Below are positions 13,783 through 55,648 of a stretch of DNA of 64,000 nucleotides, piece by piece. Source of the stretch: Nocardioidaceae bacterium (GTDB taxonomy: Bacteria; Actinomycetota; Actinomycetes; Propionibacteriales; Nocardioidaceae); the NCBI GenBank assembly GCA_029266455.1, contig JAQSWV010000008.1, positions 1-64,000 on the forward strand. The letters are read 5' to 3'. The translations under genes and the position numbers were made by a program. Each line of letters begins with the position of its first letter. Positions within the stretch are counted from its first letter, which is position 1. Below the pieces are notes generated by a model that saw only the letters and a list, made by a program, of their open reading frames with translations, was not told where the DNA came from and ran no database searches.

Positions 13783-13826
13783 GCCCGGTGAAGCGACCGT
13801 CCGATCCAGGTGAACGCAAGATGAAC
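13783..13826 (-). promoter_or_regulatory. PHO box (PhoP site) upstream of pstS
   Basis: Read on the minus strand, two directly adjacent 11-base units, GTTCATCTTGC (13826-13816) and GTTCACCTGGA (13815-13805), match the GTTCACC-N4 direct repeat of actinobacterial PhoP sites. A further unit, CTTCACCGGGC (13793-13783), lies in phase two units downstream. This is the main content of the 325-bp gap between pstS and the lipid kinase gene; the rest of the gap shows only the kinase promoter box. Confidence 0.75.
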
Positions 13827-14026
13827 GGTGACCGACCGTCCACTCCAGCGCGAGCCTCACCGGAGCGAGGGAGGCTGGTCGCGCCGGTTTCAGTGCCTCA
13901 GCGTCACCGCCGGGGCACCCGGAGTGTCCGGGGGATTCCGCGCACGACCGGGTCAGAGGACATCGACCGTGCCGACGTCGGGGCCGATGTTCGGGCTGAC
14001 GTGGAGCCGTCCCGTCCGCCAGCCCC

Positions 14027-14032
14027 TACGCT
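14027..14032 (+). promoter_or_regulatory. Likely -10 box (TACGCT) for leaderless lipid kinase gene
   Basis: TACGCT ends 7 nt before the ATG at 14040, and no ribosome site is present. The frame is open to 13788, but that extension would cross the PHO box. Confidence 0.45.
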
Positions 14033-14039
14033 CAGCACC

Positions 14040-14993
14040 ATGGTGCAGTTCACCCGGGCCGGGCGGGCCACGGTCGTCGTCAACGCGGGCTCACGAGGCG
14101 GCGCGGCGGCCTACCAGCAGGCCATCCGCCTCCTGGCCGGCGCCGGCGTCCCGGTGGTGACGACGCAGGCGGTCAACTCCGTCGACGAGCTGACCGCGGC
14201 GGTGGAGCGGGCGATCTCCGAGGGGCACGACCTGGTGGTCGTGGGTGGTGGGGACGGAACGGTGAGGTGCGCCGCAGGCCTGGTGGCCGGCACGGATGTC
14301 ACCCTGGGCATCCTGCCCCTTGGGACGGCCAACGACTTCGCGCGAACGCTGCAGGTACCGGGCGACCTCGCCGCTGCGTGCCAGGCCGTGGCTTCCGGCA
14401 AGGTGGTCGACATCGATCTCGGCCGGGTCGACGGACGGCCGTACGTGAATGTTGCCTCGGTGGGTCTCTCCGTGGGCGTGACGGAGGCGCTCAGCCCCGG
14501 ACTGAAGCGCCGCCTGGGCCGCTTCGCCTACCCTGTCGCTGCGCTGCGGGCCTACCGGCGTCACGTGCCCTTCCGTGGGCGCATGGAGTTCCCGGACGGC
14601 GACCACGACGTGCTCGACCTCGACGATCTGCTCCAGGTGGCCGTCGGGAACGGCCGCCACTACGGCGGCGGGAACACCGTGTCACCCGGCGCCGGTATCG
14701 ACGACCACATCCTCGACGTGTACGCCATCGAGCGTGGACGGCTGCGTCACCGGGTCAACGTCGCCCGGCTGCTCAAGGACGGGACCTTCGTGGAGCACGA
14801 GGGAGTTCACCACGTCACCACCCGCAAGGTGCGGCTGATCACCGACCCCGTGCTGCCGGTGAACCTGGACGGCGAGATCCTGGCCCGGACGCCGAGCCTC
14901 TTCGAGATCGAGCGGAACGCCGTCCACGTGGTCGTCCCGCAGGACAGCAGCGCCGCCATCCTCGACGGCCGACGCGCCTCCCGTCCCCACTGA
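14040..14993 (+). CDS. Diacylglycerol kinase-like lipid kinase (DagK/YegS family)
   Basis: Soluble or membrane-peripheral lipid kinase of 317 residues, standard family length. The ATP-binding motif GGGDGT is at residues 69-74 and GTANDFAR at 95-102; the C-terminal beta domain includes GNGRHYGGGNTVSPGA and the typical VNLDGEI near the end. The reaction would be ATP-dependent phosphorylation of diacylglycerol or a related lipid. It stands alone; the next reading frame is a broken PIG-L gene preceded by repeats. Confidence 0.85.
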   Translation: MVQFTRAGRATVVVNAGSRGGAAAYQQAIRLLAGAGVPVVTTQAVNSVDELTAAVERAISEGHDLVVVGGGDGTVRCAAGLVAGTDVTLGILPLGTANDFARTLQVPGDLAAACQAVASGKVVDIDLGRVDGRPYVNVASVGLSVGVTEALSPGLKRRLGRFAYPVAALRAYRRHVPFRGRMEFPDGDHDVLDLDDLLQVAVGNGRHYGGGNTVSPGAGIDDHILDVYAIERGRLRHRVNVARLLKDGTFVEHEGVHHVTTRKVRLITDPVLPVNLDGEILARTPSLFEIERNAVHVVVPQDSSAAILDGRRASRPH

Positions 14994-14997
14994 CTCC

Positions 14998-15049
14998 CGA
15001 CGATCCGCGACGATCCCCCCTCCCCCGACGATCCGCGACTTGTGCAGGC
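14998..15049. repeat. Dispersed repeat, two partial copies (CGACGATCCGCGAC type)
   Basis: CGACGATCCGCGAC occurs at 14998-15011 and again at 15026-15039; the second copy continues as TTGTGCAGGC to 15049. The same ~23-base element recurs as an inverted pair at 48014-48037 and 48172-48194. Here it sits exactly where the 5' end of the PIG-L gene should be. Confidence 0.75.
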
Positions 15050-15752
15050 CGTCGAGTACGGCGCCTCGTCGGCGGTCGCGGCCTGGACCGCCGGCGGTGT
15101 AGAGGTCGCCTACCTGCTGTTGACGCGCGGTGAGGCGGGCATGGATTCGACTCCCCCTGAACAGACTGCGGCCCTGCGCATGCGCGAGCAGGTCGAAGGA
15201 TCGTTGGCCGTCGGCGTATCCGAGGTCGAGTTCCTCACCTACCCCGACGGTGTGCTCGAGTACTCGATGCAGATGCGGCGGGACATCGCCCGCGTCATCC
15301 GGCGCTTCCGCCCCGACGCGGTGCTCACCGGCTCATGGGAGGTGGAGTTCGTGGCCGGCCTCAACCAGGCCGACCACCGGGTCGCCGGCATCGCCACCCT
15401 GGACGCCGTCCGGGATGCGGGCAACCGCTGGGTGTTTCCCGAGCTGCTCGAGGAGGACCTGCAGCCGCACTCGACGCGCTGGCTGCTGGTGGTGGGCGAC
15501 CCCAGACCCACCCACGGTGTCGACGTCTCGGGAGCGCCCGTGGAGCGGGGCATCGCCTCCCTGGAGGCGCACCAGCAGTATCTCGCCGGCATCCCCGGGC
15601 ATCCGCCTCCTCGGGCCATGATCAGCGCGATCACTGCCTTGCAGGGTCGGGCCATGAGCGTGCCGAACGCTGTGCTGATGCGCGCCTTCGACTTCCAGGC
15701 CCCGCCCCCGATCGCCGTCGAGGCGATGGAGCAGGTCACACCTGTGGCCTGA
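15042..15752 (+). pseudogene. PIG-L/LmbE-family deacetylase, N-terminus lost
   Basis: The frame encodes the body of a zinc deacetylase of the PIG-L/LmbE (MshB-like) family: EYGASSAVAAWTAGGVEVAY, LLLTRGEAG, the conserved FRPDAVLTGSWE region and the second metal site NQADHRVAG. The family begins with a strand and the metal-binding motif AHPDD directly before the EYGAS region. Here that is missing: upstream of EYG the frame reads through a dispersed DNA repeat back to the stop of the kinase gene without a normal N-terminus. Two of three zinc ligands are therefore absent, and the gene is probably inactive. A GTG at 15042 could still start a ~236-residue product. Confidence 0.7.
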
Positions 15753-33800: not shown

Positions 33801-34703
33801 ATGACCCGCAGCACCGGCCCCAGCGACACCACCAGGGACACCACCAGGGACACGACCAGGGACAGCACCGGCACCAGCGCCGGCGTGCAGACCTGCTGGG
33901 AGCTGGCTGTCTCGCTAGCGGCGCATCATGCCCCGCACGCGACGAGGTCCGACCCCCGTAGCGGGGACATCTTCCAGGTGTCGACGGTGCGAGCCCTGCT
34001 GGCCGGCTCCTTCGACGGGGACACTCCGTACGCGGAGGTCATGTGCCACGGCGACTTCGGGGTCGGCACCTTCAACGCGCTCGACGGGGAGATGGCGGCC
34101 CTCGACGGCCACTTCTACCACCTGCACTCCGACGGAAGCGTGGGCGATGTCGACCCCACTGACCTGACGCCGTTTGCGGCCGTGTGCTTCTTCCGCGCCG
34201 ACGCCGAGATCGACATCGAGAGCCCGTGCAGCCGTAGTGACCTGTTCGCGCTGGTGGATGCGACCATTCCGTCCTCCGACACGTTCTACGCGATCCGCAT
34301 CGACGGCCTCTTCGGCGCGGTGACCACGCGGACGGCTGTTCGCCAGACCAGGCCCTATCCGCGACTGGTGGAGACCACGAAGTCCCAGGTGGAGCGCACG
34401 GTGCAGGACGTCCGGGGCACCGTCGTCGGCTTCCGCTCGCCGCAGTACGCACAGGGGAAGACCGTCGCGGGATATCACCTGCACTTCCTGGATGACTCCA
34501 GAACCCTCGGTGGGCATGTGCTCGACTTCCAGCTCGAACGTGGCCGGATCACGCTCGACCAGAACACCGACCTCCACCTCCAGTTGGCAACGACGGCCGG
34601 TCCACTCGGAGTCGACATGGTGGCTGCGGATGTCGCCGCCGAGATCGAGCGTTCCGAGAACTCGACCCGGGCGGCACCGAACCGGACGAGCCACGCTCCG
34701 TGA
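33801..34703 (+). CDS. budA: Alpha-acetolactate decarboxylase
   Basis: Converts acetolactate to acetoin. 300 residues. The fold-specific segment IFQVSTVRALLAGSFDGDTP begins near residue 54, followed by HGDFGVGTFNALDGEM; the zinc-binding His-x-His is in AGYHLHFLDD near residue 225 with further ligands downstream. The first ~25 residues contain TRDT repeats from a 12-bp tandem repeat and are unlike the family. No acetolactate synthase or butanediol dehydrogenase is next to it. ATG at 33801 has no clear ribosome site. Confidence 0.85.
   Translation: MTRSTGPSDTTRDTTRDTTRDSTGTSAGVQTCWELAVSLAAHHAPHATRSDPRSGDIFQVSTVRALLAGSFDGDTPYAEVMCHGDFGVGTFNALDGEMAALDGHFYHLHSDGSVGDVDPTDLTPFAAVCFFRADAEIDIESPCSRSDLFALVDATIPSSDTFYAIRIDGLFGAVTTRTAVRQTRPYPRLVETTKSQVERTVQDVRGTVVGFRSPQYAQGKTVAGYHLHFLDDSRTLGGHVLDFQLERGRITLDQNTDLHLQLATTAGPLGVDMVAADVAAEIERSENSTRAAPNRTSHAP
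33831..33866. repeat. 12-bp tandem repeat, three units
   Basis: Three units of ACCAGGGACACC (last bases vary) inside the 5' end of the acetolactate decarboxylase gene, encoding the four-residue unit TRDT/TRDS. Same period as the repeat at 5420-5491 but unrelated sequence. Confidence 0.75.
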
Positions 34704-47105: not shown

Positions 47106-47972
47106 GTGGACGTGGGCATCGGCATCCCCAACTCGCTACCCGGTACCACCGGGACAGACCTGCTGGAGTGGGCTCGCCGCGCCGAGAGTGCAGGGTTCTC
47201 CACACTGGCAAGTATCGGAGCGGTCTCCTACCCCAGCCACGAGGAGCTGACCGTCTTCGCGGCCGCGGGTGCGGTGACGGAACGCATCCGCTTCTTCAGC
47301 AACGTGCTCATCGCCCCGGCCCGCAGCACCGCCGAGCTCGCCAAGCAGGCCGCCACCGTGGACCAGCTCACCGGCGGTCGCCTGACCCTCGGCATGGGTG
47401 TCGGCTGGCGCGAGGCCGACTACACCCTCACCGGCCGCGACTTCGAGGGCCGAGGCGCGGTCTTCGACCAGCAGATCACTGAGCTGCGGCGGGCGTGGGC
47501 AGGCGAGGCGATCGCAGAGGGGACCAGGCCGGCAAACCCGACGCCTGCCCAGCAGACCATTCCCGTGCTCGTGGGCGGGACCACGGAGGCCGCCATCCGG
47601 CGGGTCGTGGAGCTCGATGCGCAGGGCTGGACCGCGGGGGGGATGCCCCCCGACGCCGTCAGCCAGTTCGCGGGCAGGGTCAAGGAGGCGTGGCGGGCTG
47701 CGGGTCGCGCCGGGTCGCCGCGCATCGCCGCTCTGGTCTACTTCGGGCTGGGTGACACCGACGAGGAGTCGCGTGGCTACCTGCGCGACTACTACGCCGC
47801 CATGGGTCCTGAGGTCGCCGACATGATCGCGGACAGCGCCCTCCGGTCGGCCGACGCCGTCAGGGCCGCACTGCCGGCGTACCGCGAGGCGGGGGTCGAC
47901 GAGCTGATCCTGGACCCGACGGTGAGCGATCCGGGGCAGGTCGACCTGCTGGCGGAAGCCGCCCTGACCTGA
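47106..47972 (+). CDS. LLM-class flavin/F420-dependent oxidoreductase
   Basis: 288-residue luciferase-like TIM barrel: VGIGIPNSLPGTTGTDLLEW, FSTLASIGAV, FFSNVLIAPARSTAELAKQA and LTLGMGVGWREADYTLTGRD are family landmarks. The cofactor is FMN or F420; the substrate is unknown. GTG start with GGAGG seven bases upstream. The last 81 coding bases plus 21 bases after the stop are duplicated 341 bp downstream. Confidence 0.87.
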   Translation: MDVGIGIPNSLPGTTGTDLLEWARRAESAGFSTLASIGAVSYPSHEELTVFAAAGAVTERIRFFSNVLIAPARSTAELAKQAATVDQLTGGRLTLGMGVGWREADYTLTGRDFEGRGAVFDQQITELRRAWAGEAIAEGTRPANPTPAQQTIPVLVGGTTEAAIRRVVELDAQGWTAGGMPPDAVSQFAGRVKEAWRAAGRAGSPRIAALVYFGLGDTDEESRGYLRDYYAAMGPEVADMIADSALRSADAVRAALPAYREAGVDELILDPTVSDPGQVDLLAEAALT

Positions 47973-48334
47973 GCGGCTGACGGCGCCGACGCGTTGTGCA
48001 GGCAGCCCCCAGGGGACGATCCGCGACGTGTGCACGGCGACATGCAACCGCTTGCGACTCTTCAGGCTGGCTGGCTACGAAACGGCGGGCAGGCGATACG
48101 GGAAGCTGTGGGTCGCCGGTGCGGTTTCCCCGCCAGCTCGGGCCGGCGGCGGGCACCTGCGCATCGGTACGCCTGCACAAGTCGCGGATCGTCCGCGGTA
48201 CGCCGGCGGAGCGGCATCCCCCCTGGGAAGGCGGGGTCGACGAGCTGATCCTGGACCGGACGGTGAGCGATCCGGGGCAGGTCGACCTGCTGGCCGAAGC
48301 CGCCCTGACCTGAGCGGCTGAGGGCGCCGGCGCG
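47892..48334. repeat. 102-bp direct duplication of the LLM gene's 3' end
   Basis: Bases 47892-47993 (last 27 codons of the LLM gene, including its stop, plus 21 bp) recur at 48233-48334 with four differences. The copies are 341 bp apart, and the 239 bp between them contains an inverted repeat pair. The second copy has no gene body. This 400-bp gap between LLM and the amidohydrolase contains nothing else recognisable. Confidence 0.85.
48014..48194. repeat. Inverted pair of dispersed repeats (GGACGATCCGCGAC type)
   Basis: Left copy at 48014-48037 reads GGACGATCCGCGACGTGTGC and onward; right copy at 48172-48194 is its inverse complement with small differences (GGACGATCCGCGACTTGTGC on the minus strand). 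They enclose about 135 bp without a gene, like a small non-autonomous (MITE- or REP-like) element. The same element lies at 14998-15049. Confidence 0.7.
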
Positions 48335-55330: not shown

Positions 55331-55648
55331 TCAGCCGCCAGCCATCGCACCGATGATCCGGAACGGCTCCTCGGCCTGGACGACCCGCTCCGGCAGCGGC
55401 GCGTCCGGTTCCTCGTGGGACAAGTCCTCTCCGCAGGCGAAGAAGCGGACGAAGGCGCGACGTCGTGCGGTCGCCCGGTCGCGGATCGTGCCGCGCAACA
55501 TCGGGAACTCCGTCTCGAGCGCGTCGAGCACCGTCCGTTGGGTCACCGCACCCGATACGTCGACTCGCACCTCGCCCTGGATCCGGGCGATGGCGCGCAG
55601 GTGTGCGGGCAGCACCACCCGCACCGAGTCACCTCCGATGTCGTTCAT
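55331..55648 (-). CDS. MoaD/ThiS-like ubiquitin-fold protein ending in Gly-Gly
   Basis: 105 residues with a beta-grasp pattern ([54 protein letters not shown]) and the C-terminal sequence GAMAGG, i.e. the Gly-Gly needed for adenylation and thiocarboxylate formation or conjugation. It lacks other molybdopterin genes nearby. The ATG overlaps the stop of the BNR-repeat gene (ATGA), so the two are translated together. Role unknown. Confidence 0.83.

Follow-up and report, generated by a model that had tools for sequence, protein, structure and literature searches.

A lineage-restricted family of intergenic repeat arrays in a Nocardioidaceae genome, one of which abuts a truncated PIG-L deacetylase gene

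A truncated deacetylase gene next to a repeat array

In the 64,000-nucleotide stretch of DNA that we analysed (the window), a lipid kinase gene is followed by a short array of repeat units and then by an open reading frame for a PIG-L deacetylase, and a second array lies near 48 kb, downstream of a luciferase-like monooxygenase gene (Table 1).

Table 1. Features at the two arrays of the window
Feature	Position	Strand	Evidence or remark
Lipid kinase gene (YegS/DAGK family)	13788..14993	+	Pfam PF00781 and PF19279; NCBIfam NF009604 above cut-off
Stop codon of the lipid kinase gene	14991-14993	+	4 bp ahead of the repeat
Incomplete repeat unit, first half only (CGACGATCCGCGAC)	14998..15011	+	Second half absent
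C-rich spacer between the half unit and the whole unit	15012..15025	+	A C-rich head side is a property of the family
Complete repeat unit CGACGATCCGCGACTTGTGCAGG, tail adjoining PIG-L	15026..15048	+	Ends in ...TTGTGCAGG
PIG-L deacetylase reading frame without the N-terminal AHPDD part	15042..15752	+	Start GTG inside the repeat unit; PF02585
Luciferase-like monooxygenase gene, preceding the second array	47106..47972	+	PF00296
107-bp direct duplication, copy 1 (3' end of the gene at 47106-47972 plus flank)	47887..47993	+	95.3% identity to copy 2
Half unit TTGTGCAGG	47994..48002	+	Sequence
Repeat unit, right-pointing arm of the tail-to-tail pair	48014..48036	+	Sequence
Repeat unit, left-pointing arm of the tail-to-tail pair	48172..48194	-	Sequence
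107-bp direct duplication, copy 2	48229..48334	+	95.3% identity to copy 1

The PIG-L reading frame lacks the N-terminal AHPDD zinc motif of active PIG-L deacetylases, which is kept in four other PIG-L genes of the same genome. Its homology to relatives begins at residue 4, the codon directly after GTGCAGG-CC, and its Pfam PF02585 alignment covers the profile from position 11 onward only. The residues directly before the homology start in relatives are A-H-P-D-D at 10 of 11 loci and A-H-R-D-D at the other. The first-pass annotation had reported that the motif is gone, and because all 11 relatives examined carry it at this point, we conclude that the truncation is real and that the gene is missing its AHPDD end. 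In the stretches examined, none of the relatives combined this upstream gene with an intact PIG-L gene.

That annotation had also counted two copies of the repeat at this place. A pattern search of the window does find CGACGATCCGCGAC at both 14998-15011 and 15026-15039, but the first copy breaks off into GATCCCCCC, so what stands here is a half unit followed by a whole one. The only ATG, GTG or TTG start in the PIG-L frame after the kinase stop is the GTG at 15042, inside the repeat motif. Read in the PIG-L frame, the repeat (window 15024-15050) places P-D-D six codons ahead of the homology (S-P-D-D-P-R-L-V-Q-A/V-E-Y-G, the slash marking the start of the homology), and this S-P-D-D mimics the lost motif, but without the histidine. 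By a curious coincidence, the CCCCGACGA formed by the C-tract and the start of the unit also provides the H-P-D-D codons in several relatives, which allows the junction to be described as an in-frame insertion of 18 nt following PDD as well.

At the second array, the inverted pair described in the first reading is indeed present, with each arm matching the 14-mer at one mismatch. The 107-bp direct duplication brackets this tail-to-tail pair, and its first copy ends exactly where the half unit TTGTGCAGG starts. Among the BLAST matches listed, this is the only pair bracketed by a non-repeat duplication.

Copy number and anatomy of the repeat family

Below, G000 is the genome of the window, G001 a genome of the same genus, and G064 a genome of another genus. 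The window alone is insufficient to reveal a family, with 8 matches at two mismatches where 3.99 are expected; the matches at 55478-55491, inside an open reading frame and without the second half, and at 34355, inside a called gene, were rejected as members. A genome-wide count, which the first-pass annotation had called for, gave 38 exact copies of CGACGATCCGCGAC and none of the reversed pattern. An 18-mer core at no more than one mismatch occurs at 122 places (control 0), 100 of which we list. The element is thus dispersed, as had been proposed, and the family has clearly spread within the genome.

The repeated word is 20 nt long and can be written CGATCCGCGA[C/G]TTGTGCAGG; the unit with its second half is CGACGATCCGCGA[C/G]TTGTGCAGG. 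Across 109 aligned copies the word is nearly invariant, with C or G at a single position; it has a sharp edge at the tail and is preceded by 10-18 nt rich in C. The head CGACG reads CGTCG on the opposite strand in most copies, with no tag beside a stem. A single unit is not palindromic and has no stem-loop (fold -1.4, vs -4.7 for shuffled sequence).

Units follow each other head to tail in tandem, most commonly at a spacing of 41-42 bp. Among neighbours within 200 bp, 73 are head to tail, 13 tail to tail and 2 head to head, and opposed neighbours within 1.5 kb stand tail to tail in 19 of 21 cases. Several opposed pairs fold into one stem, and two (L030 and L031) have long uninterrupted stems with a 9-nt gap. 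The partners of opposed pairs can be as much as 1 kb apart, and many arrays are of a single orientation only. No interior common to the inverted pairs of different loci, such as MITEs have between their terminal inverted repeats, was found among the all-against-all BLAST matches listed. The counts of arrays rest on patterns allowing up to 2-4 mismatches.

The word is better conserved than the sequence between the words. When copies were picked on the first half only (CGATCCGCGA, 137 copies), the second half was kept at no less than 0.8 in 120 of them. In 30 pairs of neighbours 38-46 bp apart, picked in the same way, the second half agrees at 0.91 and the spacer at 0.60; in 16 pairs of neighbours in G064 the corresponding values are 0.97 and 0.62. 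If whole units were duplicated and then drifted, word and spacer should decay equally, which suggests that the word is either under selection or itself the part that is copied.

Position of the arrays in the genome

About 60 array clusters are spread over the 3.4-Mb genome, mostly in intergenic regions and most often just past the end of a gene. We called 64 arrays in 42 stretches of the genome chosen for carrying the motif, the window included, with genes called by a codon-usage script rather than taken from an annotation and gene starts accordingly rough. In 31 of the 64 arrays a same-strand stop lies no more than 120 bp from the C-rich head (no more than 80 bp in 28 of these 31), and in 13 the head is near a divergent start; tails are near a 3' end in 12 arrays and near a 5' end in 9. 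Because of the 13 heads near divergent starts, we dropped the stricter idea that arrays always follow same-strand stops. The position of heads after stops is a bias and not a rule, and some arrays are at contig ends. In the chosen stretches the motif is found in 13/20 convergent, 18/52 tandem and 6/28 divergent intergenic regions, so 31 of the 37 regions that bear it are convergent or tandem.

Ten genes adjoining arrays were scanned, and nothing evident was common to them. Array-bearing genes encode FtsQ, YbjN, DapB, LytB, Nramp, two short-chain dehydrogenases (SDR), a DUF1232 protein, a sulfatase-modifying-factor-like protein and a luciferase-like protein. Between ftsQ and ftsZ (L013:1905-2089) there is a seven-copy array made mostly of half units, with ACGGCC replacing TTGTGCAGG.

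Arrays also lie at about 10 contig ends of the 128-contig assembly, being within ~100 bp of the ends of contigs C6, C8, C9, C15, C18, C35, C56, C61, C66 and C92, so the true copy number is probably higher. In the other direction, L010 and L037 are the ends of two contigs with a 72-bp overlap and are therefore probably a single locus counted at two ends.

The array next to the deacetylase gene begins 4 bp past the lipid kinase stop, which is an ordinary site for this family. Nine arrays have a tail within 120 bp of a called gene start, and only the PIG-L array touches the start; the remaining eight are 51-115 bp away. It is also the only array found to abut a truncated gene, the PIG-L gene being the one of these nine that was examined for truncation.

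Distribution and words of relatives

The word is restricted to the lineage of this genome. The exact 20-mer occurs at 79 places in G000 and is missing from all 57 relatives searched, G001 among them. At two mismatches it occurs at 136 places in G000 and at no more than 4 in any other of 120 family genomes, and CGASTTGTGCAG occurs 96 times in G000 and at most 5 times in any of the 119 other family genomes. Scans of genome contigs and of IMG/VR, which may omit records from the genome of the window or from a very close one, gave one match in an Ilumatobacter MAG (L053) and two in IMG/VR (L066 and L067), all of them single copies without an array that we judged to be due to chance.

In 97 kb of the same-genus genome, a k-mer count brought up the hairpin CCGA[G/C][T/C]TGTCACCG-loop-CGGTGACAACTCGG, which occurs at 19 places at no more than one mismatch (control 0), several of them in gene flanks. 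Of 16 G001 spots listed, four (L132-L135) resemble single chance matches without a partner arm. In G064, a generic hairpin pattern found seven hairpins, six of them from one family, and the word CCGAG[C/T]TGTCGCGTCTGCA there forms tandem arrays with a 32-bp period and opposed blocks, all seven opposed pairs being tail to tail. The architecture of the G000 arrays is thus found in another genus, with spacers that are not C-rich. In 14 stretches of 20 kb of G064 taken irrespective of the repeat, there are 12 copies at three places (reversed control 0). An eight-unit array in this genome (L167:12771-13011) fills a 246-bp convergent gap, leaving 2 and 3 bp between its heads and the ends of the flanking genes.

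The words of G000, G001 and G064 have CGA[G/C][T/C]TGT in common, in the same orientation. A family-wide search for a hairpin with this shared core remained at the background or control level in most of the 120 genomes, so a common ancestor of the three words is a lead rather than a result.

Other palindromic or tandem repeats were seen in intergenic stretches of relatives. G064 has a second dispersed repeat, GTTGCGGTGTCAGCGACAGG (L154, L159 and L160), with opposed copies in L159. In G023, near-perfect palindromes GTCGGTTTCACTAGGTACCTAGTGAAACCGAC adjoin a GGCGCTTCCCG hairpin (L181 and L184), and tandem CGCGAAGCGTCAC-GTGTGTA units form opposed blocks (L182 and L184), one of which starts soon past a possible stop codon and a C-rich tract. 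Palindromes GCGCGTTTACGTGGGGCCCCACGTAAACGCGC occur at several intergenic places in G019 (L171 and L175). The same k-mer count found no comparable repeats in samples of G007 (60 kb) and G005 (100 kb).

Comparison with known repeat systems

Mycobacterial interspersed repeats of the MIRU type are tandem, intergenic, non-palindromic and oriented with transcription, and the present family is like them in all these respects, but its sequence and unit length are different. To our knowledge, opposed blocks arranged tail to tail are not a feature of MIRUs. DNA uptake sequences, which have species dialects, are short species-specific words that form opposed pairs after genes. The present family shares these properties; unlike uptake sequences, its ~120 copies are tandem and clustered as well as mostly intergenic, and a role in uptake would be putative.

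The closest likeness in behaviour is to the REP/BIME/REPIN elements (GTAG and CGTC superfamilies), described as species-specific words in dozens to hundreds of extragenic copies (PMC3733652, PMC2817692, PMC3116915), near gene 3' ends, in gaps between convergent or co-directional genes, and in opposed pairs that are able to fold. According to PMC3733652, REPs are mostly downstream of coding regions and between convergent or unidirectional genes, some being species-specific, they occur as opposed dimers, and those of the CGTC type have no dedicated transposase. The present family has high-copy extragenic dispersal, with its 122 core copies in intergenic clusters, a preference for positions downstream of genes, and opposed pairs of which several make a larger single stem. 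Unlike REPs, its unit is not even an imperfect palindrome, has no stem-loop bearing an unpaired GTAG or CGTC tag, and forms head-to-tail arrays. In addition, REPs can be mobilised by RAYT, and G000 has no Y1_Tnp or RAYT gene: there is no match to PF01797 (Y1_Tnp) in this assembly, which is 97% complete, whereas 5 of 14 control genomes have one. The family therefore behaves like REP/BIME but we do not file it as one, since it has neither the palindromic unit nor the tag, both of which define REPs.

Intergenic direct repeats with the sequence TAACTGA in Beggiatoaceae also form many short tandem sets, and a post-transcriptional role has been proposed for them (PMC4679880); they are located just before start codons, whereas the present arrays are mostly after stops. 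Nineteen stretches gave no Rfam match above the gathering score, hence no known structured RNA. Searches of the open-licence literature for REP/RAYT in actinobacteria and for Nocardioides repeats found no description of such arrays among the matches listed, judged by title or the start of the abstract, and searches with the motif words returned only papers that appear unrelated by their titles. The word "actinobacteria" is absent from the main text of PMC3733652 and PMC2817692, and these REP papers name no example from that group, to which the present family belongs.

Origin and possible role of the arrays

We consider it probable that the element is a member of a lineage-specific, REP/BIME-like intergenic repeat family that has spread to ~60 sites and been amplified in tandem. 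The 20-nt word, sharply bounded at its tail and C-rich at its head, would have reached intergenic sites mostly just after stops, pointing away from them, and tandem amplification at each site with a 42-bp period, commonly facing an opposed block, would have produced arrays of the form (->)n(<-)m. The word may be recognised by a protein or RNA that is responsible for copying or maintaining it, gene 3' flanks may be favoured because insertion there is least harmful, and local growth is presumably by tandem duplication. Against spread by copying, a conserved word could also stem from direct selection without mobility, and the search for a mobiliser, which covered the Y1_Tnp transposase family, found none.

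A different and rather unlikely reading is that the arrays are functional 3'-end signals, in which C-rich, G-poor, unstructured RNA with a conserved word would aid Rho-dependent (or other factor-dependent) termination or set mRNA 3' ends, opposed arrays serving convergent genes. The composition and predicted folding of the flanks are those expected of a Rho utilisation site: the first 20 nt past the stop are 0.55 C and 0.23 G in 28 motif-bearing genes, vs 0.37 C and 0.34 G in 69 genes without the motif. Heads lie a few to ~60 bp past stops, and the preference for convergent regions and the conservation of the word over its spacers are also consistent with this. However, only ~60 sites in a 3.4-Mb genome would be served, the head is near a divergent start in 13 arrays, one would hardly expect strong termination at the array between ftsQ and ftsZ, and the G064 arrays are instead strongly folded. 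Since these also lack C-rich spacers, composition fails to explain the shared layout. Another reading, to which we give little credence, takes the arrays as intrinsic terminator hairpins that have been copied and homogenised, with tail-to-tail words as the stem. The long stems of L030 and L031 would suit it, as would the compact hairpins of G001 and G064, and in G064 the 3' flanks with the motif (10) fall below shuffled sequence by 25.9 kcal/mol vs 7.2 for those without (101). In G000, however, the single unit folds less than shuffled sequence, 3' flanks with the motif fold no more strongly than the rest (-58.6 in 28 flanks vs -64.3 in 59), and the many single-orientation arrays and the partners up to 1 kb apart also speak against it.

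The first-pass annotation had tied the repeat to the broken gene, supposing that it promotes deletion or moves, and this is partly supported: the repeat is dispersed and its edge meets the PIG-L break, but a role as the cause of the deletion, or an insertion into the gene, is not supported. We regard it as improbable that the repeat drove the deletion, or inserted at the CCCCGACGA of the AHPDD codons. The PIG-L homology does begin 2 bp past the tail of the unit, the match of CCCCGACGA to the HPDD codons would allow the in-frame insertion described above, and the 107-bp duplication also brackets the 48-kb pair. On the other hand, the sequence upstream of the unit belongs not to PIG-L but to the kinase gene's 3' flank and carries another half unit; PIG-L lies beyond an array in the family's usual place. 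The other eight gene starts faced by a tail within 120 bp are at least 51 bp away, and a bracketing duplication was seen at one pair only among the matches listed. A false join of two loci at the repeat during assembly is very improbable; arrays do break this assembly, as the contig ends bearing them attest, but the array at 14998-15048 is short, its first unit is an unusual half unit, and the PIG-L frame is open to its stop. Judged from the sequence, the simplest history would be one local event, a deletion or some other rearrangement, through which the array at the kinase gene's 3' end came to adjoin the deacetylase at the V codon of AHPDD/VEYG.

By itself the truncation of the PIG-L gene is of little importance. 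The genome has ~60 clusters, and a relative in another genus arranges a different word in the same way, so it is the repeats that deserve study and the broken gene is secondary. More tentatively, and as a possibility that we would not yet call likely, each lineage of this bacterial family may keep its own ~20-nt word in (->)n(<-)m arrays by gene ends, with the words turning over from species to species while the layout and the CGA[G/C][T/C]TGT core stay. Such repeats would make up a non-palindromic, RAYT-free class whose mobiliser or binding factor, sequence-specific and as yet undiscovered, evolves together with the word. Provided that the word is a recognition site, every species would be a natural experiment on the joint change of a sequence-specific factor and a genome-wide array, and the arrays would be natural tools for asking what defines gene 3' ends in GC-rich bacteria.
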